In this document: piece after piece, positions 1,648 through 40,538 of the stretch
How positions within the stretch are numbered: position 1 is the stretch's first letter
Layout of the letters: the number at the start of each line of letters is the position of its first letter
Origin: an uncultured Clostridia bacterium
GTDB taxonomy: Bacteria; Bacillota; Peptococcia; Peptococcales; Peptococcaceae
Assembly (NCBI GenBank): GCA_944391285.1
Contig: CALXSY010000016.1
Coordinates: 1-40,845 of the forward strand
DNA length: 40,845 nucleotides
Reading direction: 5' to 3'
Position numbers and translations under genes: made by a program
Notes under the pieces: model-generated
Database searches by the model: none
What the model was told of the DNA's origin: nothing
Seen by the model: only the letters and a program-made list of their open reading frames with translations

Positions 1648-1702
1648 AAAGATCATCCTTTCTTTATCAAGACCTTTTTAAACATATTTATTGCTATCCA
1701 AG

Positions 1703-2185
1703 TTATTTGTTATTCATTTTCAGATCACGCAGACCATCATTGTACATTTCAAACACAATCCCCATGCTTTCACGCATATCTAAATATTTATAGCTGAAAT
1801 CTCCCTGACCGCCATCGTTTATTACTTTTCCTCCCATGGCACTCATCTTGTCTGCCATATCTTGATAATCCGCTACATCAATACAAATATGGTGAATACC
1901 TGAGCCGTGCTTTTCCAGATAATCTTTGTGATAATTAGTGTCGCCGCTATAATGCTGAACAAACTCAAATTCAACCCCTGCCACATTTACCATTGCGATA
2001 ACCATTGCGGCTAAAGTCTCTTTTCCATTATACAGCATCGGAATCGGCTCTTCATCTCTGCCGTCAATAATCTGGATTTCTTTTTCATCGATATCAAATA
2101 AGCGGCAAAAATTTTCTGCAGCCGCTATGGCATCAGGCACCGCGATACCGATTTGAAACATGCGCTTTAATTTAGATTCCATCAT
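1703..2185 (-). CDS. VOC-superfamily (glyoxalase/epimerase-like) protein
   Basis: Small soluble protein, 161 aa from this start. It begins with KRMFQIGIAVPDA, the usual opening strand of a vicinal-oxygen-chelate module, and later has HHICIDVADY and GIVFEMYND, which supply typical VOC metal ligands (His, Glu). Methylmalonyl-CoA epimerase and glyoxalase I share this fold. The start chosen is the ATG at 2185 preceded by AGAAGG; an in-frame TTG at 2260 would add 25 residues and overlap the upstream permease gene by 8 nt. Being sandwiched between two permease genes suggests that it acts on the imported compound or its hydrolysis product. The exact reaction cannot be told from sequence. Confidence 0.72.
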   Translation of the reverse strand: MMESKLKRMFQIGIAVPDAIAAAENFCRLFDIDEKEIQIIDGRDEEPIPMLYNGKETLAAMVIAMVNVAGVEFEFVQHYSGDTNYHKDYLEKHGSGIHHICIDVADYQDMADKMSAMGGKVINDGGQGDFSYKYLDMRESMGIVFEMYNDGLRDLKMNNK

Positions 2186-2252
2186 ATATACCTTCTTTGC
2201 TTTTTTGTCAATTAAGATATAATTATCCGCATTTTCCCAAAGGGTTAGATTT

Positions 2253-3722
2253 TTAGCCAAAAATCAACCCGCCGGCTATAAATAAAAATGCGCACAGAAT
2301 CAAAAAGTATATGAGAATAAGCGGCATAATCTGGTAGATTGCTTTAGGTGTTAAAACTTCACAGGCATGAAGCATTGCACCGGGCATTGAAGATGCCGGA
2401 GTTAAAAATGCTAAAACTGAAAAGACAGAGATAATCAGCGATGCTGCCAAAATATTAACCGGCAGACCATTCAGATACATCGCCGCAGTAACATTCATCA
2501 TAATATAGCAAATAGCAATATTATTAGCGAAATTGGTTAATATTAATGTCAAAAGCGCCAGGAAAATTAAAAATACCACCGGAGATCTGCCGGCAAAAAT
2601 CGGTCCTAATAACGAACTGATCCACATTGAAATGCCGGTCTCGGTACTGGTTAAAACACTGGAAATCAATAATGCGATTGCAACCAGCAGCAGCATATCC
2701 CAAGCAAACATTGTACTTGCTTCACGCAAATTAAGCAGCGGTTTGCCATCAATTTTAATTACTGTCATGACAATCCAAAATAAAATCATCATGCCGATTA
2801 CGCTGATCTTTAAATAAAAAGTATTAAGCGCTCCCAGCTTACTGCCGGCGACGCTGAAAACAATTACTATAAATAAAAATACACCCATGGAAAATAAAAC
2901 TATTTTTTGGGTAAGATTTAACTTTTGCTTTGTATCTATACCAAAGGCTTGGGCAATATCTACATCCGCCAACCTTTTAAAATCACACCCTACCAGCTTC
3001 ATGAAAAATGGGTAGCTGACCGTGACTGCAATATCCACTACTGCCATAATAATCATCCAGCCGCCATAAGAAATCTGGCTTTGGGTCAATTGCATCATCG
3101 TTCCCACTGTCATAATTCCCCAGCCTACGAAAGGTCTAAAGCACATTCCTAATTGGATGCAAGCCATAAATCCGGTTAAAAACATAACACTGAATCTATC
3201 ACCAATCGGATAGCCTACTTTTTTTAACGTGCTGACCATGATCGGAAAAATTCCAAAATAAAATACCATCTGTCCGCCGAAGTTATTAATAAGCAAAGTA
3301 GCTCCAAAAATAATCATCACCGTATACATAGGGCTTTTTTTGGCTAGATTGCTGCCTATGATTTTTGCCATTATATAATCCGCCGCTTTGCTCTGCATAA
3401 GCACCATAAAGCATAAGCTACCAAACATCATCATCAAGATACTCGAATTGCTGAACATCGCTATGGTAACCTGTTCTACTGTACCATAACCGGTCAGCGC
3501 CAAACCAAATATGCCTAATAAGGTCGGAAACATTAAACCGACAAAACTCCAGCCATAAATTAAACCTAAAAATACTCCTAACACTGCCATGCCATATTCA
3601 GTTACTGTGCTAAAAGTCGGAAGAAAGCGAAAACAAAACATAAACAAACACATAATTGCCACATGTACAATGGTTTTAATACTGACATCAATTGTTCCAG
3701 ATACTTTTGTTTCTGTAGACAT
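2253..3722 (-). CDS. SLC13/DASS-like anion permease (module 1, proximal copy)
   Basis: Polytopic membrane protein of 489 aa, clearly paralogous to the permease at 187-1647: shared YGMAVLGVF, GLIYGWSFVGL, MFSNSSILMMM and TNFANNIAI blocks. The paired Ser/Ala-Asn-Asn motifs mark the DASS-type ion/substrate sites. The start is the ATG at 3722 behind GGAGGTGTGAGA; an upstream in-frame ATG eight codons earlier lacks a ribosome site. It lies 71 nt downstream of the hydrolase gene, across a strong hairpin. Two permeases in one operon may take different substrates or export a product; this is inference. Confidence 0.8.
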   Translation of the reverse strand: MSTETKVSGTIDVSIKTIVHVAIMCLFMFCFRFLPTFSTVTEYGMAVLGVFLGLIYGWSFVGLMFPTLLGIFGLALTGYGTVEQVTIAMFSNSSILMMMFGSLCFMVLMQSKAADYIMAKIIGSNLAKKSPMYTVMIIFGATLLINNFGGQMVFYFGIFPIMVSTLKKVGYPIGDRFSVMFLTGFMACIQLGMCFRPFVGWGIMTVGTMMQLTQSQISYGGWMIIMAVVDIAVTVSYPFFMKLVGCDFKRLADVDIAQAFGIDTKQKLNLTQKIVLFSMGVFLFIVIVFSVAGSKLGALNTFYLKISVIGMMILFWIVMTVIKIDGKPLLNLREASTMFAWDMLLLVAIALLISSVLTSTETGISMWISSLLGPIFAGRSPVVFLIFLALLTLILTNFANNIAICYIMMNVTAAMYLNGLPVNILAASLIISVFSVLAFLTPASSMPGAMLHACEVLTPKAIYQIMPLILIYFLILCAFLFIAGGLIFG

Positions 3723-3748
3723 TCTCACACCTCCATAAAAACACATTC

Positions 3749-3788
3749 ATTGCTATCGGCAGCTGCAAATACAGCCGCCGATAGCAAT
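3749..3788 (-). repeat. Inverted repeat between hydrolase and permease genes (module 1)
   Basis: ATTGCTATCGGC at 3749-3760 pairs perfectly with GCCGATAGCAAT at 3777-3788. An inner GCTG/CAGC stem follows after one mismatch. No T tract follows on the minus strand, so it is not a standard terminator. It may be an operator or an mRNA processing/stability hairpin. The half-site ATTGCTATC recurs at 1690-1698, before the distal permease gene. Confidence 0.7.
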
Positions 3789-3793
3789 CACCA

Positions 3794-5875
3794 TTAATAC
3801 TCTTCTTCTAATATTTGATAAATTGGTGCGCCTTCGCACTGTGCAGGCATTCTGCAGCCTAAAAGCACGCAAACAGTAGGTGCTAAATCTACCTGACGAA
3901 TCCAACGATCTGTTTCAAAGTTCTTCTTCAAACCTTTACCGGCACCAATAAAGATTGGAGAAGAGGAGGTTCCTTGATCACCAAATGTAGTAGAAAGGGA
4001 ATCAGTATGGTCATAGTTATAACCTTCAGCAACCCAGAAACAAATATCGCCTGCTGTAGGTCCGCCATAGCCCAACAAAATAGCATCTTTGTTGCGCAAA
4101 GCCATAGCAATAACTCTCTTGCCGCTATCAGGGTGTTTGTAGCTATATAAATCGGTCATAATTTGTTCTTCCAATTCATACTGATCGGCTGGATCGACAA
4201 TACCATGAGGCTCTCTGCCTTTCAAATTGATAAAGATGTCGTTGCCCTGAGAAGCAATAGCTCTGGTCTTACTCCAATCGATAACTTTTTTGCCTTTATC
4301 ATTTACTTTTAAGACCGTATAGCCTAATTCTTCTAACAAGTCAGCATTAACACCGCACATATCGCCGATTCCCGGAGGTTTATATTTAGGCGAAACTTGA
4401 GCATGGTCGGCAGTAATCATAATTGTCCAGCCATCATCTAAATAATGCATCAATGCTCCAACATAGCGGTCTACTTGTTTATACAGATTTCTCATTAAGC
4501 CGTCATAAACTTCCGGATCATGTTCAGAGAAGCCGATGCCGCCTTTTTTATCCTGCATGTAGCGGATGAATGTATGCTCTACAAAGTCTACTGAATGTAA
4601 ATGTGAGAAAATTACTTCAATACCTTCATTCTCAATCAAATATTCAAAGGATTTAATATACCAATCAACAACATAATCCCAAACAGACAGCATGCAAGCT
4701 TGCATATTTAGATCCTGTGTATACATTTGAGATTGTGGTGGGAACGGACCAGCATTTTCTACCAATGCCTTTGCCAATCTCTTAGGATGGATTACTGTGT
4801 CGCATTGGGTATCCATTGCTGCGGAAATATATAAGCTTAATTGGCTGCCATCTTCAGCTAAGGTCATTACTTTATAGTGACGGTTAGCAATATAGGTTTT
4901 ATCATCATCAATAACTTCATCGATAACATTGTAGACCATTTCCCCTAATGGGCAGGTAACTAACGGAGTAGAATCTTTTTTGCTCTTATAAATAGCTACT
5001 GTATCATAAATTCCTTTTTCATTTTTCAAAATTAAACCAACCCGGCGAATAATGCCTTTGCAAAGGAAAATGGTAAATTCTTTGGCACCTTCCGGAGCAC
5101 TGGCCCAATTGGAAGCCTCTTTGATCGGTGAAATACAAGTATTGACTGCTTGCGGGAAGGAGCCGGCTCTGGTACCAAAACCTTGTTCTTCACCAGAAAC
5201 GATATTGATTGTATCAACACCAGCACTAGATAACTTATCAGTCATTTCTTCAGTCATCTGCTGTACCATCTGCATGCCTTTAGCAGTATCACTAGCTTGT
5301 AATGTTTGTTCAGGCAATTTATTAATAACACACGGAGCTACAGCATCATCAACCATACGAGTAATGAACTTAACTTCCGGAATATCGACAGAAGCGCCTA
5401 CCAATAATTCAGTATCTCTTTGCATAGCAGCTGAACCAACAGAGCCGGGAGCAGAACCGTCTACAACAAACAAGTTTTCGCTGTCAGTGGTTGGAGGCCA
5501 TGCTCCACCGGGCCAATGGAATACTACGGTTTTATATCCTGCTTCTGTTGTACAATTCCAAACCGGTTCAGCTTTAACTAAACGGCTGTCAACATTGTAT
5601 CCTGATTGATTGATTTTTCCCGGAACAACTCGGCTGAACTGAGTAATTCCATGCACGCAAGGATTGGCACCTACTGCCAAAGTAGTCCATTGCGGAGGTG
5701 TAACGGTAGGCTGTGCACCTAACATAACCAAATCATGACGCTGTGCGCCCATTTCTGCTAATTTTTTCATGTTTGGCAGATGTCCTTCATCGATATAGCG
5801 CCGAGTTAAACGAGGGTCTAAACCATCAACGCCTAAGACCATTATTTTGTCTGCCAATTTTTTTGTTCTTAACAT
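3794..5875 (-). CDS. Alkaline-phosphatase-superfamily hydrolase (type I phosphodiesterase-like), module 1
   Basis: Soluble protein of 693 aa with no signal peptide, so cytoplasmic. It carries the metal-site pattern of the alkaline phosphatase superfamily (type I phosphodiesterase/nucleotide pyrophosphatase branch). Asp17 and Asp20 lie in VLGVDGLDP, the likely nucleophile Thr59 in PTVTPPQWTT, and then come HSVDFVEH, TADHAQVS and YDHTDS, which give the remaining Asp/His ligands. The absence of a C/S-x-P-x-R motif argues against a formylglycine sulfatase. It is longer than usual for the family, with a large middle insert. The start is the ATG at 5875, 8 nt after AAAGGAG; two earlier in-frame ATGs are badly spaced. 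It heads the operon with two permeases and a VOC protein. A paralogue lies at 37160-39175. Confidence 0.8.
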   Translation of the reverse strand: MLRTKKLADKIMVLGVDGLDPRLTRRYIDEGHLPNMKKLAEMGAQRHDLVMLGAQPTVTPPQWTTLAVGANPCVHGITQFSRVVPGKINQSGYNVDSRLVKAEPVWNCTTEAGYKTVVFHWPGGAWPPTTDSENLFVVDGSAPGSVGSAAMQRDTELLVGASVDIPEVKFITRMVDDAVAPCVINKLPEQTLQASDTAKGMQMVQQMTEEMTDKLSSAGVDTINIVSGEEQGFGTRAGSFPQAVNTCISPIKEASNWASAPEGAKEFTIFLCKGIIRRVGLILKNEKGIYDTVAIYKSKKDSTPLVTCPLGEMVYNVIDEVIDDDKTYIANRHYKVMTLAEDGSQLSLYISAAMDTQCDTVIHPKRLAKALVENAGPFPPQSQMYTQDLNMQACMLSVWDYVVDWYIKSFEYLIENEGIEVIFSHLHSVDFVEHTFIRYMQDKKGGIGFSEHDPEVYDGLMRNLYKQVDRYVGALMHYLDDGWTIMITADHAQVSPKYKPPGIGDMCGVNADLLEELGYTVLKVNDKGKKVIDWSKTRAIASQGNDIFINLKGREPHGIVDPADQYELEEQIMTDLYSYKHPDSGKRVIAMALRNKDAILLGYGGPTAGDICFWVAEGYNYDHTDSLSTTFGDQGTSSSPIFIGAGKGLKKNFETDRWIRQVDLAPTVCVLLGCRMPAQCEGAPIYQILEEEY

Positions 5876-6108
5876 GAGCATCTCTCCTTTTTTTGATTGA
5901 ATCATTGTTTTTTCTTAATAGTCAGATGATTATTGCGCTATCTAAAGCTTTGCAATTAATATCTATTAGCTGATTGCTTTTGCTTTGATAATGCTCTCAA
6001 CTCATGTGACTAATTAACCATATCTTTATAATATACATTTTTTGCTTTTATGCATAGTATTTGTTTTAGATTATCCCTTTTCAAAAAAATGAACACTTTC
6101 CGCATAAA

Positions 6109-6137
6109 AAAAGATATCCATAAAAGGATATCTTTTT
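6109..6137 (-). terminator. Terminator of LysR gene 1
   Basis: AAAAAGATATCC and GGATATCTTTTT form a 12-bp stem with a 6-nt loop. The arm overlaps the stop codon of the minus-strand LysR gene and separates it from the hydrolase operon downstream. Confidence 0.85.
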
Positions 6138-7077
6138 AAGATGCATTCACTGTTTGTTTAATACAGCGCAATATTTCATTGGCATATTCTTTATTCATTT
6201 TTTTGTTGCAGATAAGCCACAACGACATTTTCTCGCCTTTTTCTATAGGAATAAATCTTAACTGTTTGCGGTCGGAATTGCCGAACAAAATAGGCATTTT
6301 CAACATGCGCCCGACTCCGAAATCATTTAAAATAGCCTGAAAATATACGGTGTTGTTATCCGTACTTAAAACATAATTGCCTTCTTCATATATACCGGAA
6401 AATTTGCTGTTTTTAAATTGTTCTTCTCTGTTGTCCCAAGCTCCATTCAGCCGAACTTGGGGGATATCTTTCAGCTCTTCCTCTGTCAGCTCAGTGACAT
6501 TGAGCGGAATATATTTAGAATATTTCGAGGAGACAACCGCCAATTCAAAGGTGTCAATTTTATAATAATTTACCCCGCCATACATGTCACTATCAATATT
6601 TTCTTTGCAAATAACTTCATCTTCATAATAAATAAAAATGCCGATATTATTGATATCCTCCCGCACTTTATCAAATATTCCTTTAAAAGCCATACTCTGG
6701 GAAGAAATATAAGTATTGGGAAATGTTTTTTTCAAGCCGACCAATATCGGCGGAAAAATAGAGCTGGCAAAATTGCTCTCCATAAAGACATTTAACTCAC
6801 GACCTTTGTCAGTGTATCTCAAACAATCATTCTTCATCCCATTTATTATATTAAAAATTAAATTTGCCCTCTCTACTACATTTTCGCCAGCTTCGGTTAA
6901 GGTTACTCCATGTACTGAGCGTTCCAATAACGGCACGCCAAACTCGTTTTCCAAGTTTTTTATCGCCGTTGACAGTGCTGACTTAGAAATAAAAAGTGAT
7001 TCGGCAGCTTTGTTGATTGACTTAGTTTTAGCTATTTCCTGCAAATATCGCAATGACTCTAAACGTACCACTTCCAT
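6136..7077 (-). CDS. LysR-family transcriptional regulator (module 1)
   Basis: 313 aa, normal LysR length. The N-terminal winged helix-turn-helix (residues about 4-62) shows SINKAAESLFISKSALS and FGVPLLERSVHGVTLTEAG. The rest is the effector-binding domain typical of LysR proteins. The start ATG follows GAAGGAGGG. It lies directly upstream of the hydrolase/permease operon, on the same strand but with its own terminator, and is the obvious candidate to control that operon in response to the imported compound. It is also divergent from the zinc-ribbon/ABC genes, which it might influence. The effector is unknown. Confidence 0.88.
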   Translation of the reverse strand: MEVVRLESLRYLQEIAKTKSINKAAESLFISKSALSTAIKNLENEFGVPLLERSVHGVTLTEAGENVVERANLIFNIINGMKNDCLRYTDKGRELNVFMESNFASSIFPPILVGLKKTFPNTYISSQSMAFKGIFDKVREDINNIGIFIYYEDEVICKENIDSDMYGGVNYYKIDTFELAVVSSKYSKYIPLNVTELTEEELKDIPQVRLNGAWDNREEQFKNSKFSGIYEEGNYVLSTDNNTVYFQAILNDFGVGRMLKMPILFGNSDRKQLRFIPIEKGEKMSLWLICNKKMNKEYANEILRCIKQTVNAS

Positions 7078-19575: not shown

Positions 19576-20838
19576 ATGTTAGACATCAAATTTATTCGCT
19601 CCAATCCGGACGAAGTCACAGCGGCAATGAAAAAAAGAGGCATGGATTTAGATTTAAGCGAATTTTTATCTTTAGATGAAAACCGCCGCAAAATCCTTTC
19701 CGAAGTAGAGCAATTAAAAAGCAAACGCAACAGCGTTTCCAAAGAAATCGGCATCATGAAGAAAAACGGTGAAAATGCCGACCAGTTAGTTCAGGAAATG
19801 GGCGAAGTAGGCGAAAAAATTAAAGAATTGGATGAGCAGGTCAAAAATATTGACACTCGCTTGAAAGATATCATTTTAACTATCCCCAATATTCCTCACG
19901 AAAGCCTGCCGGTAGGCGGAGAAAGCGATTATCGTGTGGAGCGCACTTGGGGCGAGCCGACCAAATTTGCCTTTGATCCTCAGGCTCACTGGGATATCGG
20001 CGAAAAATTAGGTATCTTAGATTTTGAGAGAGCTACCAAAGTCACCGGTGCCCGTTTCACTTTTTACCGTGGTTTAGGCGCTCGTTTGGAAAGAGCAGTT
20101 ATTTCTTTGATGCTTGACATTCACACTTCGGAAAACGGCTATGAGGAGCTGATTCCTCCTTACATGGCAAACAAAGATTCTATGACCGGCACCGGTCAAT
20201 TGCCCAAATTTGCCGAGGATATGTTTAAATTAGAAGGCTTGGATTATTATTTAATTCCTACCGCCGAAGTTCCGGTAACCAACTATTACCGCGATGAAAT
20301 TTTAAATGAGAAGGATTTGCCTATCAAACACTGTGCCTTTTCTCCCTGCTTCCGTTCCGAAGCCGGCAGCTACGGCAGAGACACCAGAGGCATTATCCGT
20401 CAGCATCAGTTCCACAAGGTGGAATTAGTTAAATTTGCCAATCCGGAAAATTCCTTTGAAGAGTTAGAGAAGCTTACCAACGATGCGGAGAAGGTTCTCC
20501 AGCGTTTAAATCTTCCTTACCGGGTTATCACTTTAGCTACCGGCGATATCGGTTTTTCGTCGGCTAAGACTTACGATATCGAGGTTTGGCTGCCCAGCTT
20601 TAAAACTTACCGGGAAATTTCCTCTTGCAGTAATTTCTTAGATTTCCAAGCAAGACGTGCCAATATCCGCTATCGTGACAAGCAAGGCAAGGTGCAGTTT
20701 GTGCATACCTTAAACGGTTCCGGCTTAGCAGTAGGACGTACTGTCGCTGCTATTTTGGAAAATTATCAGCAAGCTGACGGCAGTGTTATCGTGCCGGAAG
20801 CATTGCGCCCCTTTATGGGAGTAGACGTGATTAAATAA
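19576..20838 (+). CDS. serS: Seryl-tRNA synthetase
   Basis: 420 aa, normal bacterial length. The N-terminal antiparallel coiled-coil arm spans about residues 25-105 ([18 protein letters not shown]). The class II catalytic core shows [15 protein letters not shown], motif 2 ([20 protein letters not shown]) and motif 3 ([15 protein letters not shown]). It charges tRNA-Ser and tRNA-Sec with serine in the cytoplasm. The ATG follows AAGAAGGG. It sits directly upstream of the replication origin, where dnaA would be expected, and reads towards the origin. Confidence 0.97.
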
Positions 20839-20981: not shown

Positions 20982-21180
20982 TTATAAACAATTTGTGGAT
21001 AACTTGTGGATAATTAGAGATATCTTGTTGATAAAATGTGTATACTTTTTTTGGCTGTTAATTTGTGGACAACTATTTATTATCTTCCACATGCTTATAA
21101 ACATTAGGAAATATGCATAAAATTTACTTTCTCTTTACTTTTCAACATATCCACATCCCCTACTACTTCTACTACTTTAC
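20982..21180 (+). other. oriC: Chromosomal replication origin (oriC)
   Basis: The gene-free 457-nt gap between serS and dnaN holds a dense DnaA-box cluster. TGTGGATAA (perfect, minus-strand TTATCCACA) occurs at 20994-21002 and 21005-21013. One-mismatch boxes lie at 20982-20990 (TTATAAACA), 21026-21034 (TGTTGATAA), 21037-21045 (TGTGTATAC), 21064-21072 (TGTGGACAA), 21095-21103 (TTATAAACA) and 21147-21155 (ATATCCACA). The last box is followed by a GC cluster and DnaA-trios. The flanking sequence is AT-rich. Position directly upstream of dnaN matches the unwinding region of the B. subtilis dnaA-dnaN interval. Confidence 0.88.
21147..21178 (-). promoter_or_regulatory. Basal unwinding element: DnaA box, GC cluster and DnaA-trios
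   Basis: ATATCCACA (21147-21155) is followed by T and CCCC (21157-21160). The minus strand, read 3' to 5' from 21160, is then GAT GAT GAA GAT GAT GAA: six successive DnaA-trio units. Box, GC spacer, trios is the order described for B. subtilis, where DnaA loads on single-stranded DNA. Confidence 0.8.
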
Positions 21181-21295
21181 ACCTTAAATTGTAGAAGAAG
21201 AAGCAAAAAAAATTTGTGCAAAACTTCTGCCTAATAAACTATCTACCTGTAACCTGCACTTGATTACAAAACATGTATCTAAGGAGGATTTAACT

Positions 21296-22405
21296 ATGAA
21301 ATTTTCTGCACCTAAAGAAAATCTGCTTTATGGCATTAATGCCGTACAACGGGCTATTTCCGTTAAAAATACTGTGCCAATTCTTTCAGGCATCTATCTT
21401 AAAGCTAAAGATAAACATCTTGTTTTTGCCGCTACCGATTTGGAAATAGCTATCGAATGCACGGTGCCGGCATTGGTCATTGACGAAGGCGAAATCGTTC
21501 TTCCTGGACGTTATTTGGCAGAATTAACCCGCCGTTTGCCTGACGGCGAAATAATTTTTGAGTATCAGCCCGAAAGCGTTTCTATGAAAATTACCTATGA
21601 AAATGCTGAAAGCTCCATTAAAGGCTGGCTTGGAGAGGAATTTCCCACTATCAGCCAGATTAACGGCGAAAAGGAATTTTCCATTATTCCCAGTGACTTT
21701 ATTTCCTTAGTTAAGCAAACCTCTTTCTGCGCCAATAAAGATGATATTCGTCCCGTATTTACCGGCGCTTTAATCGAAGTTAACAACAATACTTTAAATA
21801 TGGTCACTACCGACAGCTACCGGCTGAGCTTTAAGCAAATCAATATTCAAAATCCCCAGGGCTGTCAGTTTAATAAGGTTGTTCCCGTGAAAGCTTTGGA
21901 GGAATTAAGCCGCATTTTAAAGGACGATGACGACGATTTATTAACCGTCACCTACAATCAAAATCAAATGTCCTTTTCCAACAGCGAAATGCGCTTTATC
22001 ACCCGTTTAATCGACAGCACATTCCCTGATTACAATCGGGTAATACCGAAAAATTATCAAACTTTAATTAAATTTAAAAAGCGCAATCTGCAAAATACCA
22101 TTGACCGCGCTACCTTGTTTATCTCCGACCGTGACGGCAGCAATGTCATCAAGATGAATATTGATAACGATAATATTAATATCACCTCTCAGTCCGATTA
22201 CGGCAAAATCGACGAAAACCTGCCTATCTATCAGGAAGGCGACAATCTATCCATCGCTTTTAATGCCCGCTATCTGACCGATGCCTTTAAAAATATGGAT
22301 TACGAAGATTTAGAAGCGACTTTCAGCGGTTCATTGGGCGCTGCCGTCTTCCGCGGGCTCAATGACAATAAATATCTTTATCTCATCTTACCTTTAAGGA
22401 GTTAA
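21296..22405 (+). CDS. dnaN: DNA polymerase III beta sliding clamp
   Basis: 369 aa from the ATG at 21296, behind AAGGAGG; an in-frame ATG at 21260 lacks a ribosome site. Three-domain clamp pattern: KNTVPILSGIYLKA in domain 1, TDSYRLSFKQI in domain 2 and a C terminus ending YLYLILPLRS. It forms the ring that tethers the replicative polymerase to DNA. It heads the dnaN-recF-gyrB-gyrA block immediately beside the origin. recF begins 5 nt after its stop, with its Shine-Dalgarno inside the end of dnaN. Confidence 0.97.
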   Translation: MKFSAPKENLLYGINAVQRAISVKNTVPILSGIYLKAKDKHLVFAATDLEIAIECTVPALVIDEGEIVLPGRYLAELTRRLPDGEIIFEYQPESVSMKITYENAESSIKGWLGEEFPTISQINGEKEFSIIPSDFISLVKQTSFCANKDDIRPVFTGALIEVNNNTLNMVTTDSYRLSFKQINIQNPQGCQFNKVVPVKALEELSRILKDDDDDLLTVTYNQNQMSFSNSEMRFITRLIDSTFPDYNRVIPKNYQTLIKFKKRNLQNTIDRATLFISDRDGSNVIKMNIDNDNINITSQSDYGKIDENLPIYQEGDNLSIAFNARYLTDAFKNMDYEDLEATFSGSLGAAVFRGLNDNKYLYLILPLRS

Positions 22406-22410
22406 GAAAA

Positions 22411-23520
22411 ATGTACCTCGAAAAGCTTACCTTGGAAAATTACCGCAACTATCTAAATGAAGAAATTGTCTTTGATAAAGGGATCAACCTTTTATTAGGA
22501 CAAAACGGCCAAGGTAAGACTAACCTTTTGGAGGCTGTTTATTACCTCTCCTGTGCCAATACCTTTCGGGGCGGCAAAAAGATTGAGGAATTAATCAATA
22601 TCGAAAAGGATTATTTTCATCTTTCCGCTGTCTTGATTAAAAACCGCACCTTTGAGTTAGAAATTTCCGCCAACCGCCAAAAAAAGCGGCAGATTAAAAT
22701 TAACAATGTCCCTTATAAACGAGGCATCGACCTTTTGGGTTATCTAAAGGTCGTCCTCTTTTCTCCGGACGATCTCAAAACCGTGAAAGGTTCACCCCAG
22801 GAAAGACGGCGCTATTTAGACCTTTCTTTGTCCCAGTACGACAAAAGCTACGGACAAGTTTTGCAGAAATATCAAAAGGTTCTCTTGCAGCGCAACAGCC
22901 TATTAAAGGATAAATCATTACCCTTAAACGAAAGCTCTCTTTCCATCTGGGACGAACAGCTGGTTAACTACGGCAGCGAAATTATCCTTAAACGCTTGAA
23001 CTATCTAAAAAAAATTGTTCCTACTGCCCGCAAAATCCACGCTGAGTTAAGCCAAAACAAAGAAAGATTAAATATTACCTACCAGTCAAGCTTAGGCAAG
23101 ATTGGCGATGTTTCCTTGGCAGAAATGAAAAATTTATTCTTTGATACTCTTATAAAAAAACGAAAAGAAGAATTTTTCCGCACAACCAGCCTTTTCGGTC
23201 CTCATCGGGACGATTTGATTTTTTATTTAAACGATCTGCCGCTTAGGATCTACGGCTCTCAAGGACAGCAAAGGAGCTTTATTTTAGCATTAAAAATGGC
23301 TGAAGCCCGAATTTTTTGCTCTGACGGCGATAAGCCGTTAATGCTTTTAGATGATGTTTTAAGCGAGCTGGATGATTTAAGGCGCAAGTTTCTTCTGGAC
23401 GAGATTAAAAATGAGCAAATGCAGACCATCATCACTGCTGCAAACATGGAGTTTAAAGAGGGAAATTTGCCTTATAATCAAGCGTACGAAGTTTCAAAGG
23501 GAAAAATCATTAAAATTTAA
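22411..23520 (+). CDS. recF: DNA repair/replication protein RecF
   Basis: 369 aa SMC-like ATPase. Walker A GQNGQGKT is at residues 30-37, with LSLSQYDKSYGQ and SQGQQRSFILALKMAEA in the signature region and Walker B MLLDDVLSELDDLRR. It loads RecA with RecO and RecR at single-strand gaps. The ATG follows AAGGAG at the dnaN 3' end, so translation is probably coupled. The small S4-domain gene (rlbA/yaaA) that often lies between dnaN and recF is absent, and so is remB (DUF370) between recF and gyrB. Confidence 0.96.
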   Translation: MYLEKLTLENYRNYLNEEIVFDKGINLLLGQNGQGKTNLLEAVYYLSCANTFRGGKKIEELINIEKDYFHLSAVLIKNRTFELEISANRQKKRQIKINNVPYKRGIDLLGYLKVVLFSPDDLKTVKGSPQERRRYLDLSLSQYDKSYGQVLQKYQKVLLQRNSLLKDKSLPLNESSLSIWDEQLVNYGSEIILKRLNYLKKIVPTARKIHAELSQNKERLNITYQSSLGKIGDVSLAEMKNLFFDTLIKKRKEEFFRTTSLFGPHRDDLIFYLNDLPLRIYGSQGQQRSFILALKMAEARIFCSDGDKPLMLLDDVLSELDDLRRKFLLDEIKNEQMQTIITAANMEFKEGNLPYNQAYEVSKGKIIKI

Positions 23521-25605
<2,085 letters not shown>

Positions 25606-25619
25606 TTAATGGAGGAAAT

Positions 25620-28058
25620 ATGGATAATTTTACACATGGAAAGATTTTGCCCATTGTGATGGAGGACGAACTGCAAAACTCCTTTATCGATTATGCGATG
25701 AGTGTTATCACCAGCCGTGCTTTGCCTGATGTTCGCGACGGCTTAAAACCGGTGCATCGCCGTATCCTTTTTTCGATGTATAAAACGGGTATGTATCCCG
25801 ATAAACCTCATAAAAAATCAGCCCACATAGTCGGCGACGTGCTGGCTAAATATCATCCTCACGGCGACAGATCCGTTTACGATGCTATGGTGCGTCTGGC
25901 GCAGGATTTCAATATCCGCTATCCGTTAATCGACGGTCAGGGCAACTTTGGTTCGGTGGACGGCGACAGCGCTGCGGCTATGCGTTATACCGAAGCCCGC
26001 ATGACCAAGCTGGCTTTGGAAATGCTCACCGATATTGAAAAAGAAACTATCGATTATATGAAAAACTACGACGAGTCCTTGGAGGAGCCGACTGTTTTGC
26101 CCAGCAGATTTCCCAATCTTTTGGTTAACGGCTCATCCGGTATCGCCGTTGGTATGGCAACCAATATCCCACCTCATAACTTAGGCGAAGCTATTGATGC
26201 CGTAATTGCTTTAATCGATGATCCGGAAATGCCCGATGAGAAATTATTAAAAATCGTCAAAGGTCCCGACTTCCCCACCGGCGGCACCATCATGGGCTTA
26301 AAAGGCATTCGTGATGCTTATCTGACCGGGCGCGGTTCTATTAAGGTTCGGGCTAAATCCACCATCGAAAAGATGAGCAACGGCAAATGCCGTATTTTGA
26401 TTCACGAAATACCCTATCAGGTCAATAAAGCCCGCCTAATCGAGCGTATAGCTGATTTGGTCAAAGAAAAGAAAATTGAAGGTATCAGCGATCTCCGTGA
26501 CGAATCCGACCGCAAAGGTATGCGCATCGTCATTGAGCTCAAGCGGGATGCTAATCCGCAAATCGTGCTCAATCATCTGTATAAAAATACCCAGCTGCAG
26601 GACAATTTCGGCGTTATCAACCTAGCTTTGGTCAACGGTATGCCGCAGATTTTGACCTTAAAGCAGATGCTGAAATATTATATTGCTCACCAGGAAGACG
26701 TCATCGTTCGCAGAACCAAGTTTGATTTGCGCAAAGCGGAAGAACGGGCGCACATCGTCGAAGGCTTAAAAATTGCGGTGGATAATATTGATTTGGTTGT
26801 TAAAATCATTCGTTCCTCCCGCACCGATGAGGAATCCAAGCAAAAACTGCATGATGCCTTAGGCTTAACTGATAAACAAGCTCAAGCCGTTATCGATATG
26901 CAGCTTAAGCGTTTAAATGGTTTGGCTATCGAAAAGTTAATCGAAGAGTTAGACGAACTGCGCAAACGCATCGCTTATTACAAGCAAGTCTTGGCTGATG
27001 AAGCAAAAGTTTTAAATATCATCAAAGAGGAAATCACCGTTATCCGCCAGAAATATGCCGATCCCCGCCGCACCGAAATTGCTTTGGACGAGGACGAGCT
27101 GGAAATGGAAGATTTAATCGCCGATGAAGATGTAGTTATCACCATTAGCCACAGCGGCTATATCAAACGGGTGCCCATGGATACCTACAAGAGCCAGAAA
27201 CGCGGCGGCAAAGGCATTACCGGCATGACTACCAAAGAAGAGGATTTTGTCGAGCAGTTATTTATCACCTCGACTCACAATTATCTGATGTTCTTTACCA
27301 ATACCGGCAAATGCTACCGCTTAAAGGTTTACGATATTCCCGAAACCAGCCGCACCGCCAAAGGTACAGCTATGGTTAACCTCATCAATATCAATAACGA
27401 GGAAAAAATCACCGCCGTTATTTCCGTCAAAGATTTCAGCGAGGAAAAATATCTCTTGGCTGCGACCCGTCACGGCTATGTCAAAAAGACTGTTTTAAGC
27501 GAGTATGATTCCTCCCGCAAGGACGGCTTAATCGCTATCAATTTAGAGGAAGGCGACGAACTGGTTAAAGTAGTCTTAACCGACGGCAAGCAGGAATTGA
27601 TTTTGGTTACTGCTCAAGGCATGTCGATTCGCTTCAGCGAAGAAGAGGTTCGTCCGATCGGACGCACCGGACAAGGTGTTCACGGCATCAAACTGACCAA
27701 AGGCGATCATGTTCAGGCGATGGATATGGTCAGAAGCGATGCTCAGGTTTTGGTTATCACCGAAAACGGCTACGGCAAGCGCACTTCTATCGATGAATAC
27801 CGCTCGCAAAGCCGCGGCGGCAAAGGTATTCAAACTATCAAAGAAAGCAAACGCAACGGCGATATTGTCGATATGCTGATTGTAAAAAATGGCGAGGAAA
27901 TCATGGTCGTTACTACTGAAGGCATCATCATTCGCCTGGAAGTAAGCGGCATTACCTCCTCCGGCAGAGCAACTATGGGTGTTATGCTCATGCGCTTAAA
28001 TGAAAACGATAGGGTCATCGCTATGGCCAAAGTCATCAACGACAATAATGTTAATTAA
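25620..28058 (+). CDS. gyrA: DNA gyrase subunit A
   Basis: 812 aa. The breakage-reunion domain has catalytic Tyr123 in [10 protein letters not shown]. The C-terminal beta-pinwheel carries the gyrase-specific box QKRGGKG, which separates it from ParC. The ATG follows GGAGGAAAT. In the quinolone-resistance region the sequence is [14 protein letters not shown]: Arg84 (AGA) stands where E. coli has Ser83 and S. aureus Ser84, while Asp88 (E. coli Asp87) is kept. Serine or alanine is the common residue here, so this protein may be naturally less sensitive to fluoroquinolones. Confidence 0.97.
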
Positions 28059-34384: not shown

Positions 34385-35416
34385 TTAAAGATCCATAAAG
34401 CATTTGCCATTTGACGGAATATAGCATCTATTGCAGGAAATACAGCGTGAAGGACGAGTGTCGCCGCTTTGCCAGCGGTTAGGTAAATTTGGTTCGGAGA
34501 TAAGCGGTCTGGAAAGGGACAGGGCGTCAATATTATTATTTTGCAGAAGCTTATTCATCTCGGATATGCTGCGATGACCGCCAACTAAAATAACCGGCGT
34601 ATCAATTAACTTTTTCAGCTCAATCGCCGCATTTTTAAAATAGGCTTCATTGACTCCCGGCACAATACCTTTTCTGGAGGTTTCATTGCCGCTGATTTCG
34701 ATCGAATCAATCCCAGCCCGGGAAAGCTCACAGCAATATTTAATACACCCTTCTTCAGTCAGCCCGCCTTTTTCAAAGTCCTGACAGTTGATTTTTATTG
34801 AAACATGGAATTCATCGCTAACCTTTTCTCTTATCCCCCAAAGCATTTCTTTAACTATAAGAAGCGGATTTTCTCCGTAGCGGTCTTGGCGGTGGTTGTA
34901 TTTGGGGCTTAAAAAGCGGCTTAAAAGAAGTCCGTGGGCAGCATGAATCTGAACGCCGTCAAATCCGGCTTTTTCAGCATATTCTGCTCCTTTGATGTGC
35001 GCATTAATAACAATATCTATTTCCTCTCGGCTCATTTCATCAATAGGGCAAGGTCTGAATTTTCCGCTTGAATCCTTATGTTCAAAATCATCAATCATGA
35101 TTTGCTGCCAAATACGCACATTATATTTTTTGACAACGTCTGCAAGAGCTTTTAATGGCTTTACACATTCTTCGCTGTCAAGGCGCAGCAAAAAGTTATC
35201 TGATTCTGCATCACCGAAGGATAAAACCTGAGCTGCACCGACAACAATAGTGCCTACTCCTCCTTTGGCTAAATTTTCATACAGTCGGATCAAATCTTCT
35301 GTGGGGCAACCATTCTGATCAGTCATAAATTCGCCGGTGGCTGAGCGGACTAAACGGTTTTTAGCATGAAAGCGTTTCTTTTCAATAGGTGTAAAAATGT
35401 TTGTTTCCTCAAGCAT
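34385..35416 (-). CDS. Old Yellow Enzyme-type NADH:flavin oxidoreductase
   Basis: 343 aa FMN-dependent TIM barrel: RLVRSATGEFM near the N terminus, GFDGVQIHAAHGLLLSRFLS with the paired His-Ala-Ala-His, NHRQDRYGENPL, and PVILVGGHRSISE at the phosphate site. The C terminus has CISCNRCYIPSNGKC, which could bind an iron-sulfur cluster as in 2,4-dienoyl-CoA reductase/BaiCD relatives. The protein stops there and lacks the FAD/NAD domains of those longer enzymes, so it needs a separate electron donor. Substrates in the family are enoates and enones. The ATG follows GGAGGG. Confidence 0.88.
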   Translation of the reverse strand: MLEETNIFTPIEKKRFHAKNRLVRSATGEFMTDQNGCPTEDLIRLYENLAKGGVGTIVVGAAQVLSFGDAESDNFLLRLDSEECVKPLKALADVVKKYNVRIWQQIMIDDFEHKDSSGKFRPCPIDEMSREEIDIVINAHIKGAEYAEKAGFDGVQIHAAHGLLLSRFLSPKYNHRQDRYGENPLLIVKEMLWGIREKVSDEFHVSIKINCQDFEKGGLTEEGCIKYCCELSRAGIDSIEISGNETSRKGIVPGVNEAYFKNAAIELKKLIDTPVILVGGHRSISEMNKLLQNNNIDALSLSRPLISEPNLPNRWQSGDTRPSRCISCNRCYIPSNGKCFMDL

Positions 35417-35490
35417 GGCAATCCCTCCGGTTGTTTAGTATTTAAAATATTATAACATAAATATTGTATTTTGCCAATAACGCTATATAA

Positions 35491-35540
35491 AAAAGCACCC
35501 TCCGAAGGTCGGTTTCCCGGCAGCTTCAAAGGGTGCTTTT
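35491..35540 (-). terminator. Terminator of module 2 permease gene
   Basis: AAAAGCACCCT (35491-35501) pairs with AGGGTGCTTTT (35530-35540); on the minus strand the stem ends in a TTTT run. It lies just after the permease stop and separates it from the OYE gene. Confidence 0.82.
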
Positions 35541-35552
35541 GTTGGTTAATTC

Positions 35553-37004
35553 TTAATAATTAAAGAAAATGTTACATAAAGGAATACCTACGCCCAAAAG
35601 GATTACAGTACTGCAAATAATAACTGGAACAGCATATTTGATCCATTGTTTCTCATCAACTAACGGCAAAGCGAAGAGCATTGCAACAGTTGCACAAGAG
35701 GAAGGAAGTAAGTAAGCAATCAAAACTGCATAGAGCAACAAGGTAACTACTGCCTGCAAATTGATAGCTACAGTTGCAGACAATGCTACAGCGATAGGCA
35801 ACATAACGAAGCAAACAACCAAGTTGTTGCCGATATTGGTTAAAATTACGGCTAAGACTAAAATAGCAATTAGGAAGACTAAGGGGCTCATGCCGGTGAA
35901 GATTGGAGACAGCCAGTTGGAAACCAAAGTTTTGATACCGGTAGCATCGCTCATTAAAATGTCGGAAACACCGATAGCAGAGCCTAACAAAATAGGCATA
36001 TCCCAGTAAATATTTTTGGAAACTTCAGAGAAGACCAACCCACTTTTGCCGTTGAACTGCAAAATAGATAGTAAAACGAAGTAGCACATCATAATGCCGA
36101 CTACGCCTAATTTAGAGTTAAGCTGACCTAAGAAGCTGGTTTTAGGCATGAAGGACAAAACGATAATAGTGCCGATGAATACTAATAAGTAAGTAAGCAT
36201 GAATTTTTGTTTGGAATCCATCGGAGGTAAATCTTTTTTAAAGTCACTGGCGTTAATATTAGCCAAATTTGTAACATCACAGCGCATGATAAAACGCATA
36301 AACAAGGTATAGCCAACAACATAAGCAACTGATAAAGGAATGGAAACCAGCATATAATCCGAATATGCTAATTCGATGGATACCATGTTTTTCAAGGTGC
36401 TGATAACGAATAAGGGCATATTTTTGAACGGTAAAATATTAGCAGCCATCATACCGGTAACCATAGTTCCCATGTAAAGCAGCATGATGTATTTATCGCC
36501 TTTTTTATAGCCAAATTTAGCGGCGATTTCTTCGATCATAGCCCAGAAAAGGAAGAAGCCGATTAGATAGTTAACTAAGCAGCAGAATATCATACATGCG
36601 CCTAAAAAGACTCCGGTAAAGACCCAGGGACGACCATTGATAATCTTGTTACCCATCATCGCAGAAACGATGTAATCATTTAAGCCAACACTGGTGATAG
36701 CGCCGACAATAGCCATGGAGAAGATACACATCCAAACTACGTCATCACCTAAGCATAATGCCAAGGCTCCGGGGATATTAGTATATCCGGTCAGACCGAT
36801 GCCGCAGATCAGCATCATACTGGGCCAAACCATTTCAACAGTACTCCACAGCCAGCAAGCACCGATAAACAAGCCTAAAATTTTCATACCGACTTCGGTG
36901 ATAGGTTCATAGGGAGGTAAATTCCAAAAAATAGCAACGATTGCAAGACCAATAATAGCATTAATATAATATTTCGCATCTTTTTTGCTGTTATAAAGCA
37001 ACAT
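35553..37004 (-). CDS. SLC13/DASS-like anion permease (module 2)
   Basis: 483 aa polytopic membrane protein homologous to the two module 1 permeases (EVGMKILGLFIG, GYKKGDKYIM, SNWLSPIFTGMSPLVFLI, TNIGNNLVVCFVML). It differs at a key spot: where module 1 copies have FSN-S-[TS] in the first half, this protein has CLGDDVVWM. In the second half it has GNN instead of [SA]NN. The Na+/substrate site may thus be changed. The ATG follows GTGAGGGG. It lies downstream of the second AP-superfamily hydrolase, separated by 155 nt containing a strong inverted repeat and a possible promoter. Confidence 0.8.
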   Translation of the reverse strand: MLLYNSKKDAKYYINAIIGLAIVAIFWNLPPYEPITEVGMKILGLFIGACWLWSTVEMVWPSMMLICGIGLTGYTNIPGALALCLGDDVVWMCIFSMAIVGAITSVGLNDYIVSAMMGNKIINGRPWVFTGVFLGACMIFCCLVNYLIGFFLFWAMIEEIAAKFGYKKGDKYIMLLYMGTMVTGMMAANILPFKNMPLFVISTLKNMVSIELAYSDYMLVSIPLSVAYVVGYTLFMRFIMRCDVTNLANINASDFKKDLPPMDSKQKFMLTYLLVFIGTIIVLSFMPKTSFLGQLNSKLGVVGIMMCYFVLLSILQFNGKSGLVFSEVSKNIYWDMPILLGSAIGVSDILMSDATGIKTLVSNWLSPIFTGMSPLVFLIAILVLAVILTNIGNNLVVCFVMLPIAVALSATVAINLQAVVTLLLYAVLIAYLLPSSCATVAMLFALPLVDEKQWIKYAVPVIICSTVILLGVGIPLCNIFFNY

Positions 37005-37052
37005 TTTATTCCCCTCACTTTATAAATTAATAGTAAAAATGAATTAAAACAT

Positions 37053-37095
37053 ATTATAGCAGTTTACTATACGCTGCATTAACAGCGTATAGTAA
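37053..37095 (-). promoter_or_regulatory. Perfect inverted repeat and -10 element before module 2 permease
   Basis: TTACTATACGCTG (37064-37076) and CAGCGTATAGTAA (37083-37095) form a perfect 13-bp repeat with a 6-nt spacer. On the minus strand an extended -10, TGCTATAAT (37053-37061), follows. The repeat covers the -35 position, as an operator would. No T tract follows on the minus strand. Confidence 0.65.
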
Positions 37096-37159
37096 TTTTA
37101 TGAAGCAATTTGAGATTTTGTTGCAAAAAACTTTTGAAAATAAATTTTCTATCGAAACA

Positions 37160-39175
37160 TTAATAAACTTGCTCTAAGATCTGATAAGCAGGAGCACCTT
37201 CGCATTGATGCGGCATACGAACACCGAGCATAGCAGCAATAGTAGGAGTAACGTCTACCTGGCGAATGATGCGGTCGGTTTCAAAGCCGGATTTTAAGCC
37301 GGTACCGGCTGCCATGAAGATAGGAGATACGGAGGTGCCGCCATAGCCATAAGTGGTAGCTAAGGAGTCGCAGTGATCATAGTTGTAACCTTCAGCAGTC
37401 CAGTAAATAATGTCACCGCATTCCGGTCCGCCCATGCCTAAGAGATAAGCATCTTTGTTGCGCAAAGCGCAGGCAACGATACGCATACCGGTTTTCTTGT
37501 CATGATAGCCGTATAAAGCAGTCATGATTTCTTCTTCCAATTGATATTTGTCTTCCGGCTCAACGATACCATGAGGATCTCTGCCTTTTAAGTTAATGTA
37601 GATGTGGTTACCGCGGTTAGCAACTGCTTTGGTTCTTTCCCAATCGATTTCATGAAGCTCGTTGCCGTTTTCGTCGTATTTGATGTGGGTAAAGCCCAAT
37701 TCTTCCATAACACGTAAATTTACACCGGCATCGTCGCCTAAATAAGGAGCGTCATGTTCCGGGCAAACTTGAGCATGGTCAGATACGATAAATACAGTCC
37801 AACCCTCATCCAGAAAATGCAAGAAATGGCTGATATACTTATCAGTTTGGATATATACTCTTTCCATCAAGGCTGCATACTCGGACTCAGGCAATTTATT
37901 GTCGCCATGGTCTTTCATACGGCGGACAATCATATGACCCTGCAAGTCGATATTGTGGAAATGAGAGAATACTACATCATAGTTTTCTTCTTCAATTAAA
38001 GTATGGAGAGCAGTAGCATACCACTCAGCCTTAGCATCCCAGTTGGAAATCATGCATTTCCACAATAATGCTCTGTCAACACCGCCGATCATGCAGAAGG
38101 GATGGCAATGTCCGGCTTTTTCGATTACTTGCTTGTAAAGGCGTTTAGGATGCCACATGATGTCGCTTTCGGTATCCATGCCGGCAGAAACCCACATTTT
38201 AACATGAGTGCCGTCTTCAGCTAATTCTAAGATACGCATATTTCTGCTGACCGGACGACGGGTTACACGGTCTTTTCTGCTGATAGCTTCGTCTACAACA
38301 TCGGTAGTGAAGACATCTTTTTCCAAAACAACGATAGGTTCGGTTTCTTTTTTGGATTTATAAATAGCTATTTTATCATAAATGCCTTGTTCATTTTTCA
38401 AGATTAAGCCGACTCTGCGCAATAAACCTTTGGAGCACAATAAAGTGATTTCTTTTGCACCTTCCGGAGCATTAGCCCAGCCATGAGCATCTTGGATAGT
38501 AGAATATGCTAAGTCAAAAGGAGCTTCGGAATAGCAGTTAGTGCCGTCTTTTTGGTCTAAGATAATGTTGGTGTTATCTTCTTTGGAATAGTGATCACGG
38601 GAATCTCTGGCAACAACTTCTTCTAAGTCATTGATAACGCAAGGTACGTTGCTGTCAGCAGCAGCTTTTTCTTTGTAGGTAATAGCTTCGGTTTTTACGT
38701 CAGCGATTAAAACAAACTCATCATCAATAGTAGCAACAGACATATTAACACAAGCCGGTTGGCTGCCGTCGACAACATGCAAGTTTTCACTGTCAGAGCT
38801 TGGAGGCCAAGAAGAACCGGGCCAGTGGAAGACTAATGTTTTTAATCCGCTTTCAGCAGTTACATTCCACAATTGCTCAGCTTTGCAAAGACGGGAATCC
38901 AAATTGTAATCCATTTTATCTAAATCCTTACCTTGGCGGTTAAAGCAGGTAATACCGTGAGTGCAGGCATAAGCACCGGTTGCCAATGTAGTCCACATCG
39001 GCGGAGTTACAGTTGGGTGACCGCCTAAAAGAACTAAATCGTGTCTTTGAGCACCTCTTTCGATAAATTTCTTGGTGTTGGGCATTTTTCCTTCGTCAAC
39101 GTATCTTCTGGTTAAACGAGGATCCATACCATCGATACCTAAAACCAAAACTTTTTTTGTTACAGCTTCTTTCAT
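37160..39175 (-). CDS. Alkaline-phosphatase-superfamily hydrolase (type I phosphodiesterase-like), module 2
   Basis: 671 aa, paralogous over its whole length to the hydrolase at 3794-5875 (shared GIDGMDPRLTRRYVDEGK against GVDGLDPRLTRRYIDEGH, PTVTPPMWTTLATGA, HWPGSSWPP, VSDHAQVCPEH, YDHCDSLATTYG, IRQVDVTPTIAAMLG). Metal-site Asp15 and Asp18, likely nucleophile Thr57, then the D..H, DH and H ligands are all present. No signal peptide, so cytoplasmic. The ATG follows GAAAGGAG. It lies between a permease gene and a divergent LysR gene. Substrate unknown; a phosphoester or phosphonate is inferred from the family. Confidence 0.82.
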   Translation of the reverse strand: MKEAVTKKVLVLGIDGMDPRLTRRYVDEGKMPNTKKFIERGAQRHDLVLLGGHPTVTPPMWTTLATGAYACTHGITCFNRQGKDLDKMDYNLDSRLCKAEQLWNVTAESGLKTLVFHWPGSSWPPSSDSENLHVVDGSQPACVNMSVATIDDEFVLIADVKTEAITYKEKAAADSNVPCVINDLEEVVARDSRDHYSKEDNTNIILDQKDGTNCYSEAPFDLAYSTIQDAHGWANAPEGAKEITLLCSKGLLRRVGLILKNEQGIYDKIAIYKSKKETEPIVVLEKDVFTTDVVDEAISRKDRVTRRPVSRNMRILELAEDGTHVKMWVSAGMDTESDIMWHPKRLYKQVIEKAGHCHPFCMIGGVDRALLWKCMISNWDAKAEWYATALHTLIEEENYDVVFSHFHNIDLQGHMIVRRMKDHGDNKLPESEYAALMERVYIQTDKYISHFLHFLDEGWTVFIVSDHAQVCPEHDAPYLGDDAGVNLRVMEELGFTHIKYDENGNELHEIDWERTKAVANRGNHIYINLKGRDPHGIVEPEDKYQLEEEIMTALYGYHDKKTGMRIVACALRNKDAYLLGMGGPECGDIIYWTAEGYNYDHCDSLATTYGYGGTSVSPIFMAAGTGLKSGFETDRIIRQVDVTPTIAAMLGVRMPHQCEGAPAYQILEQVY

Positions 39176-39593
39176 TTTTATAAACTCCTTTCGATATTTA
39201 AATTACTTATTTAACTTACAATTAGATTATACTTAGTTATCATATACATTTGAATAATCTATATGTTACATAGCAATACTTTGTGCCAAATAGTTGCAGC
39301 AGAAAAAAAGTATATTTTTTATATAAGAAAAAACAGCATAATTATCGCATTTTATATAAGCAATAATTTTTTCGAAAACAAAAATAAATAAATATGTTTT
39401 TTATAAACAAGATAATTGCAAAAAAAATATTTTAAAAATTATAATATATATTTTTTCTACGCTATAATGTTTAAAAAAGAATTGTTGCCAAAACAAAGGC
39501 TTTGCTTTATAATTGTACATGACTGATGTATAAAAATTTTGCAAGTATTCCAACTTTATTTGATTAAAATTAAAATTTAAGGAGGAACTTATT
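39176..39593. promoter_or_regulatory. Divergent AT-rich control region (hydrolase 2 / LysR 2)
   Basis: 418 bases without a gene. It has a minus-strand promoter at 39226-39254, and TTTTATATAAG occurs twice (about 39317-39327 and 39350-39360), a possible LysR-type binding pair. The region between a divergent LysR gene and its target is the usual operator site. The stretch is extremely AT-rich, so chance repeats are possible. Confidence 0.5.
39226..39254 (-). promoter_or_regulatory. Sigma-A-type promoter of hydrolase 2
   Basis: Minus strand TTCAAA, 17 nt, TATAAT, about 50 nt upstream of the hydrolase ATG. Confidence 0.6.
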
Positions 39594-40538
39594 TTGCGCA
39601 TTGAACAATTATACGCTATAGTTGAAGTTGGCCAATCATCATCTATGTCTGAAGCTGCACAAAAACTCCACACTTCCAGTCAAAATGTCAGCAAAACTAT
39701 TAGTCAGTTAGAAAAAGAGCTCAATACTATTCTTTTTACGCGCTCCAGCCAAGGAGTTTTTCTTACTCCGGAGGGCAAAGCCATCTATGAGTATGCTTGC
39801 GATATCGTTAAAAAAATTGATATGCTCAAGCAGTACACCAATATTTTGCCGAAGCAGAGCACATCGCTGGCAGGAAGCTTGCACATCACTGCTAATATTT
39901 CTTTATCCTCTTTGATGGTGGATCTTTTGGAGAAAATGCGTTTCTTTTATCCTAATATCCGCATTTCTTTAGATTCTACCGCTGCGATGCCGACTGTCGA
40001 AAATTTTGCCAGCGGCAAATGCCAAGCCTCCTTTATTTCTTTGCCGGAAGAAAGCTGCGATTTCTTAAAAAATTATCAAAAAGAAGTAGATATTTTTTTC
40101 TTTGAGGAAGAAAACCTCAAGGTTTTTATGAATAAAAACTCGCCTTATATTAACCAAAATCATTTTTCTCTGAAAACTCTCTCTAAACTTCCCTTTATTG
40201 ATTATCTTGGTGAGTTTAATTCTTCGTCTTTTGCTCAGCAAGTATTTGCCCGCTATGGCTTAGCGCCAAATATTATTTTCAGCTGCAATAATTCCCAGTT
40301 AACCTTAGATTATATTTCTAAAAATGATGCCTACTGCTTTGGCACTAATGATATCTTGAAGGCTTCTTCGGTGGTTAAGCAATTGCCGTTAGTTATAAAA
40401 CCACTCAAGGAACGCATCAATATTATGCGTTTTCTTTTAGTCAGTAAAAACCGCAAAAAATACGCTAAAGAAATAGATGCTTTAGTAAAAGTATTTTCTC
40501 AGCATGTGGCAGAAAGATATGAAAAAATAGTCTTTTAG
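39594..40538 (+). CDS. LysR-family transcriptional regulator (module 2)
   Basis: 314 aa. The N-terminal helix-turn-helix is clear (SMSEAAQKLHTSSQNVSKTI, LNTILFTRSSQGVFLTPEG); the effector domain follows from about residue 90. Begins with TTG at 39594 behind AAGGAGG. Divergent from the hydrolase/permease genes of module 2, the classic LysR layout, so it likely controls them. It is only distantly similar to the LysR of module 1, which suggests different inducers for the two modules. Confidence 0.9.
   Translation: MRIEQLYAIVEVGQSSSMSEAAQKLHTSSQNVSKTISQLEKELNTILFTRSSQGVFLTPEGKAIYEYACDIVKKIDMLKQYTNILPKQSTSLAGSLHITANISLSSLMVDLLEKMRFFYPNIRISLDSTAAMPTVENFASGKCQASFISLPEESCDFLKNYQKEVDIFFFEEENLKVFMNKNSPYINQNHFSLKTLSKLPFIDYLGEFNSSSFAQQVFARYGLAPNIIFSCNNSQLTLDYISKNDAYCFGTNDILKASSVVKQLPLVIKPLKERINIMRFLLVSKNRKKYAKEIDALVKVFSQHVAERYEKIVF

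Follow-up and report, generated by a model that had tools for sequence, protein, structure and literature searches.

A DnaA-box and DnaA-trio unwinding element retained beside dnaN and separated from dnaA in a Peptococcaceae genome

Introduction

In Bacillota, dnaA, oriC and dnaN nearly always follow one another in this order, and cooperation between the two origin halves is assumed. The locus considered here, in which an origin element of the expected type lies directly upstream of dnaN while serS takes the place usually held by dnaA, raises the question of whether such an element can still be the chromosomal origin when the initiator gene has been moved elsewhere. To answer this, the architecture of the element, its counterparts in related genomes, the present surroundings of dnaA and genome-wide strand composition were considered.

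Results

The window, namely, the whole stretch of DNA that was analysed, is the entire contig C16 (40,845 bp) of a draft genome of 1.70 Mb in 36 contigs (completeness, 100%; contamination, 0.14%). In this contig, the order serA-serS-[origin element]-dnaN-recF-gyrB-gyrA is seen. On the plus strand, serS (19576-20838; TIGR00414, 572.6 bits) precedes the element and dnaN (21296-22405; TIGR00663) follows it, succeeded by recF, gyrB and gyrA (22411-28058, plus strand). The latter three comprise the ancestral origin-flanking cluster and appear in the same order in G003 and G006, two relatives that, like all those named here, are metagenome assemblies of gut Peptococcaceae. A sequence-only reading of the window had reported serS in the usual place of dnaA and no dnaA within some 20 kb on either side; both statements are exact, the second covering contig C16 to its ends. 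An intact, single-copy dnaA is found on contig C4 (105,476 bp) at positions 57160-58581, behind rpmH and rnpA, with dnaN also being single-copy. Given the lengths of C4 and C16, the shortest possible distance between dnaA and the element is about 66 kb, supporting the earlier claim that the element is separated from its initiator gene. The ends of C16 matched no other contig by overlap, such that joining C16 to C4 in this manner failed. Elsewhere in these contigs, paralogous clusters encoding a citrate-type transporter, a large protein of ~670-700 aa and a LysR regulator are repeated at window positions 187-7077 and 34385-40538 and at C4:4-24 kb.

A search for DnaA boxes revealed two perfect copies of TTATCCACA on the minus strand (20994-21002 and 21005-21013) and three boxes with one mismatch, at 21026 (TTATCAACA, minus strand), 21064 (TTGTCCACA, minus strand) and 21147-21155 (ATATCCACA, plus strand), i.e., five boxes with at most one mismatch in 162 bp (20994-21155). 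The two perfect boxes of the sequence-only reading were thus recovered, although its six near-perfect boxes are reached only if two mismatches are allowed. The four minus-strand boxes make up a distal group (20994-21072) that falls within the top-scoring box window of the genome. Beside the trios lie the tandem boxes TTTTCAACA/ATATCCACA (21139-21155, plus strand), the equivalent of B. subtilis boxes 6 and 7 and the same as in G003 at 17 of 17 bases. These are followed by a C-rich spacer, TCCC (21156-21159, plus strand), and by six DnaA-trios on the bottom strand (21160-21177), reading 3'-GAT GAT GAA GAT GAT GAA-5' (CTA CTA CTT CTA CTA CTT on the plus strand). Opposite the trios, the top strand presents repeated TnnT motifs, the motif of the DnaD recognition element (PMC10201434). 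The published search for such a box-plus-trio unwinding element (BUS) calls for a box with no more than two mismatches, a spacer of up to 16 bp and at least three trios (PMC8287927). Here, a cluster of DnaA boxes is present, and the tandem boxes are followed by six trios across a 4-bp spacer, where three or more with a central A are called for within 16 bp.

Across the genome, the weighted box score of the element (18.0) ranked first of 33,848 windows of 300 bp, the 99.99th percentile being 15.3. In a box-plus-trio scan, the element obtained a net score of 14; the next-best site reached 8, and none in five simulated genomes exceeded 7. A direct search for its pattern in all contigs found a single copy. 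Window positions 20994-21177 are, as such, the sole convincing box-plus-trio unwinding element of this genome, and the earlier description of boxes and trios next to dnaN in the B. subtilis unwinding order was borne out by the exact box, the TCCC spacer, the six trios and their uniqueness.

The same scan listed, as a plus-oriented entry, a mirror trio array of minus-strand sequence CTTCTTCTTCTA (21192-21203), accompanied by a two-mismatch box, TTTTGCACA, at 21215-21223. Together (21192-21223), these face the main trios across ~14 bp and rank fifth in the genome-wide BUS scan. The two trio arrays are able to pair as a hairpin (z -2.4), and the mirror array could possibly represent a second side for helicase loading. 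A GAAGA-type motif, the counterpart of the mirror element, follows the trios in other family members.

The second-strongest cluster of DnaA boxes, comprising five boxes of which two are perfect, lies on contig C7 (36963-37046), directly upstream of a YigZ/IMPACT-like gene. Where other family members possess this gene, four to nine boxes precede it in most cases, yet such a cluster is absent from the order-level relatives examined, making the cluster a candidate site of DnaA titration or reactivation. As an origin, this site was rejected, since C7 is uniform in composition; the box-plus-trio scan found no trio element there.

In a set of 60 genomes, dnaA and dnaN are neighbors in all 53 other genomes in which both were found. 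Accordingly, the split, with serS upstream of the element and dnaA on C4, is derived and, within the compared set, is seen in the present genome only. The dnaA-dnaN spacers of family members share the layout of the element. When the element was aligned with five such spacers, the tandem boxes and the TACTACT trio core proved to be nearly invariant, while the flanks were not; the core TTTTCAACATATCCACA is identical in the element and in G003, CTACTACT recurs twice, and the flanks are poorly conserved. The element is orthologous to the spacer between dnaA and dnaN in the relatives and is the ancestral spacer origin. In G003 and G006, dnaA is of lagging type and the genes from dnaN onward are of leading type, with the switch falling exactly between dnaA and dnaN; therefore, replication starts in that spacer in these relatives.

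The origin-proximal regions of the present genome are visibly scrambled. No exact repeat of more than 15 bases was found at the rearrangement junctions. A small gene immediately after dnaA (C4:58645-59184), with no Pfam match, shares 26% identity with the gene upstream of serS in G006 and may possibly be a decayed pdxT and a footprint of the rearrangement. A single simple event, namely, the block interchange or excision of a segment reaching from a pdxT-like gene as far as dnaA, would account for the two new junctions; given that the pdxT match is only 26%, this was left as a sketch.

Examination of the dnaA locus revealed five DnaA boxes, one of them perfect, upstream of the gene (C4:56887-57058), where relatives carry two to nine. 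The loss of local DnaA autoregulation put forward in the sequence-only reading is hence not supported. A terminator-like hairpin of its own lies directly 3' of dnaA. Perfect parS sites occur just twice in the genome, at C4:52420 and C4:52459, and these, together with parAB (named by synteny with the parS-flanked pair of the relatives), are 5-7 kb from dnaA. By comparison, 19 parS sites are found on one 128-kb contig of G006. C4 also carries a noc-like parB, dnaX, recR and an mnmG orthologue, the last named by synteny. The box-plus-trio scan detected no trio element on C4, be it near dnaA or at the composition switch described below. Because C4 and C16 each hold genes whose G006 counterparts are no more than ~65 kb from the origin, dnaA is probably still origin-proximal. 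As such, the changed dnaA dosage that had been proposed finds no support, with dnaA also lying beside parS, and a large change is unlikely.

The direction in which these genes have been replicated was addressed using a classifier of composition that takes gene orientation into account, trained on uniformly skewed contigs and distinguishing leading from lagging genes with an AUC of 0.98. The log-odds for leading were -6.8 for dnaN, -4.7 for recF, -1.9 for gyrB and -2.1 for gyrA, giving a mean of about -3.4; among 879 sets of four successive leading genes elsewhere, the lowest mean is -1.4. serS also obtained a lagging-strand score. In a comparison of orthologues, dnaN-gyrA had moved toward lagging by ~0.15 on average, as opposed to ~0.05 for most other genes. 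High expression was rejected as the cause of the lagging-like codons, since most of the leading expression genes identified by motif, among them rpoB, rpoC, secA and atpD, still score as leading, with rpsL being the exception; recA likewise scores as leading. Since any gene that immediately follows a bidirectional origin is on the leading strand, the lagging scores of dnaN-gyrA indicate that forks mostly came from the gyrA side.

In a two-state model, every contig except C4 and C16 belongs wholly or almost wholly to one replichore, the deviation in C24 and C25 being a single odd terminal gene. The sole strong left-to-right switch in composition is on C4, at 72.7-73.9 kb (72.7-73.3 kb by the two-state model) and at least 51 kb from the element; no DnaA-box cluster was found within 15 kb of this switch. 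C16 shows only a weak change, over five genes, near 32.6 kb, such that the element does not occupy the leading/lagging switch at which a BUS-type oriC is expected. Cumulative GC skew falls to a deep minimum at C4:73,855, whereas the window has but a shallow minimum, at position 23,206, with a flat profile beyond. The raw skew of the window alone (minimum at 23.2 kb) had been considered as support for the element but was replaced by the classifier, as it is flat afterwards and tracks gene orientation. Elsewhere in the genome, C15:20-41 kb and C33 show extreme GC skew, from -0.25 to -0.41, ~3 times the genome norm. Strand composition thus disagrees with a replication origin at the element. A GC-skew minimum elsewhere is largely the outcome that the sequence-only reading had named as speaking against its assignment, and, together with the lagging character of dnaN-gyrA, it places that assignment of the present chromosomal origin in doubt.

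Discussion

The reading that we favor, if by a modest degree of belief, is that the element is a conserved site of DnaA-dependent unwinding, supplied with DnaA from a distant gene, and that it is probably still an origin. Within this lineage, a rearrangement broke the junction just upstream of the ancestral Bacillota-type unwinding region (incC/BUS). This region remained beside dnaN-recF-gyrB-gyrA, with serS now preceding it, and dnaA came to lie in another stretch, at least 66 kb away, along with rnpA-rpmH, a box cluster of its own and parABS. DnaA from this distant locus may bind the distal boxes, assemble on the tandem boxes, spread onto the trios and open the DNA, as in B. subtilis. In reaching this view, sequence constraint and uniqueness were weighed slightly above composition, because the origin-proximal regions are visibly scrambled. 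The doubt that attaches to it arises because a long-standing origin at the element would make dnaN-gyrA leading-strand genes.

The same doubt lends considerable, if lesser, plausibility to the idea that the main origin is now near dnaA on C4, either at the box cluster at 56.9 kb or at the switch near 73 kb, with forks running head-on from gyrA to dnaN. The element would then be a former origin that was displaced and has been retained either as a start site of secondary or conditional use or to control the dnaN operon in response to DnaA. Such an origin would account for dnaN-recF-gyrB-gyrA being lagging here and leading in relatives, as well as for the deep skew minimum and strong switch seen on C4 alone, the contig that also holds parS, parAB, the noc-like parB, dnaX and recR. 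However, C4 lacks a trio element, no box cluster lies within 15 kb of its switch and the cluster beside dnaA includes but a single perfect box. Moreover, by the time synonymous sites had been reset, a disused BUS should have decayed, whereas the core of this one is intact. It is also conceivable, though we consider it unlikely, that a bipartite origin has come apart, with a half comprising the BUS and dnaN and a half comprising the DnaA boxes, dnaA and parS both being maintained at least 66 kb from each other. Forks would mostly start on the dnaA side without a BUS, the BUS serving as a secondary or conditional start.

That the element is a non-functional relic of an old origin, with decay still to come, is highly improbable: its position off the composition switch would fit, yet, between divergent flanks, the boxes and trios at its core show the same conservation as those of working relatives, even though the synonymous sites of dnaN have already been reset. 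Equally improbable is an artefact of assembly or binning, in which a chimeric junction in C16 or C4 conceals an unbroken dnaA-oriC-dnaN; although the genome is a draft in 36 contigs, with 77-base overlaps among their ends, two matching chimeras would be required, the junctions hold no repeat able to cause one, dnaA has a terminator-like hairpin of its own directly behind it, a rearrangement of long standing agrees with the lagging-type dnaN-gyrA, and the completeness and contamination values and single copies of dnaN and dnaA argue against it.

If the element is indeed an unwinding site served from afar, how does it compare with known origins? The bipartite oriC of B. subtilis has its unwinding region between dnaA and dnaN (PMC6669920, PMC5295017) and shares with the element the distal boxes, tandem proximal boxes, short spacer, trios toward dnaN and TnnT opposite the trios (PMC6669920, PMC8287927, PMC10201434). 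Unlike in B. subtilis, serS rather than dnaA is upstream here, the origin halves are at least 66 kb apart and the element is off the composition switch. In E. coli, oriC is likewise away from dnaA, at 44 kb (PMC5295017). In the present genome, however, the cluster broke between dnaA and the origin, which stayed with dnaN; rather than lying outside the dnaA-dnaN-recF-gyrB cluster and near mnmG, as does a displaced origin of the E. coli type, the element adjoins dnaN, and C4 holds the mnmG orthologue. Cyanobacteria carry dnaA apart from dnaN, and the Synechococcus elongatus origin is near dnaN at the GC-skew shift (PMC7198777). There, as here, the origin is beside dnaN with dnaA elsewhere, although the element is not at such a shift and the event is an independent one, in a different phylum. 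The present case would thus resemble B. subtilis in mechanism and E. coli and cyanobacteria in separation, while its position off the composition switch is unlike all three; this comparison draws on a small literature search, and a published case in Bacillota may exist.

Because the origin halves have been parted in a natural genome, one can test which of them sets the start of replication and whether initiation needs a nearby dnaA. At the same time, the disagreement of strand composition with a conserved unwinding element offers a direct and cheap test of how far origin prediction based on GC skew and on motifs can be trusted.
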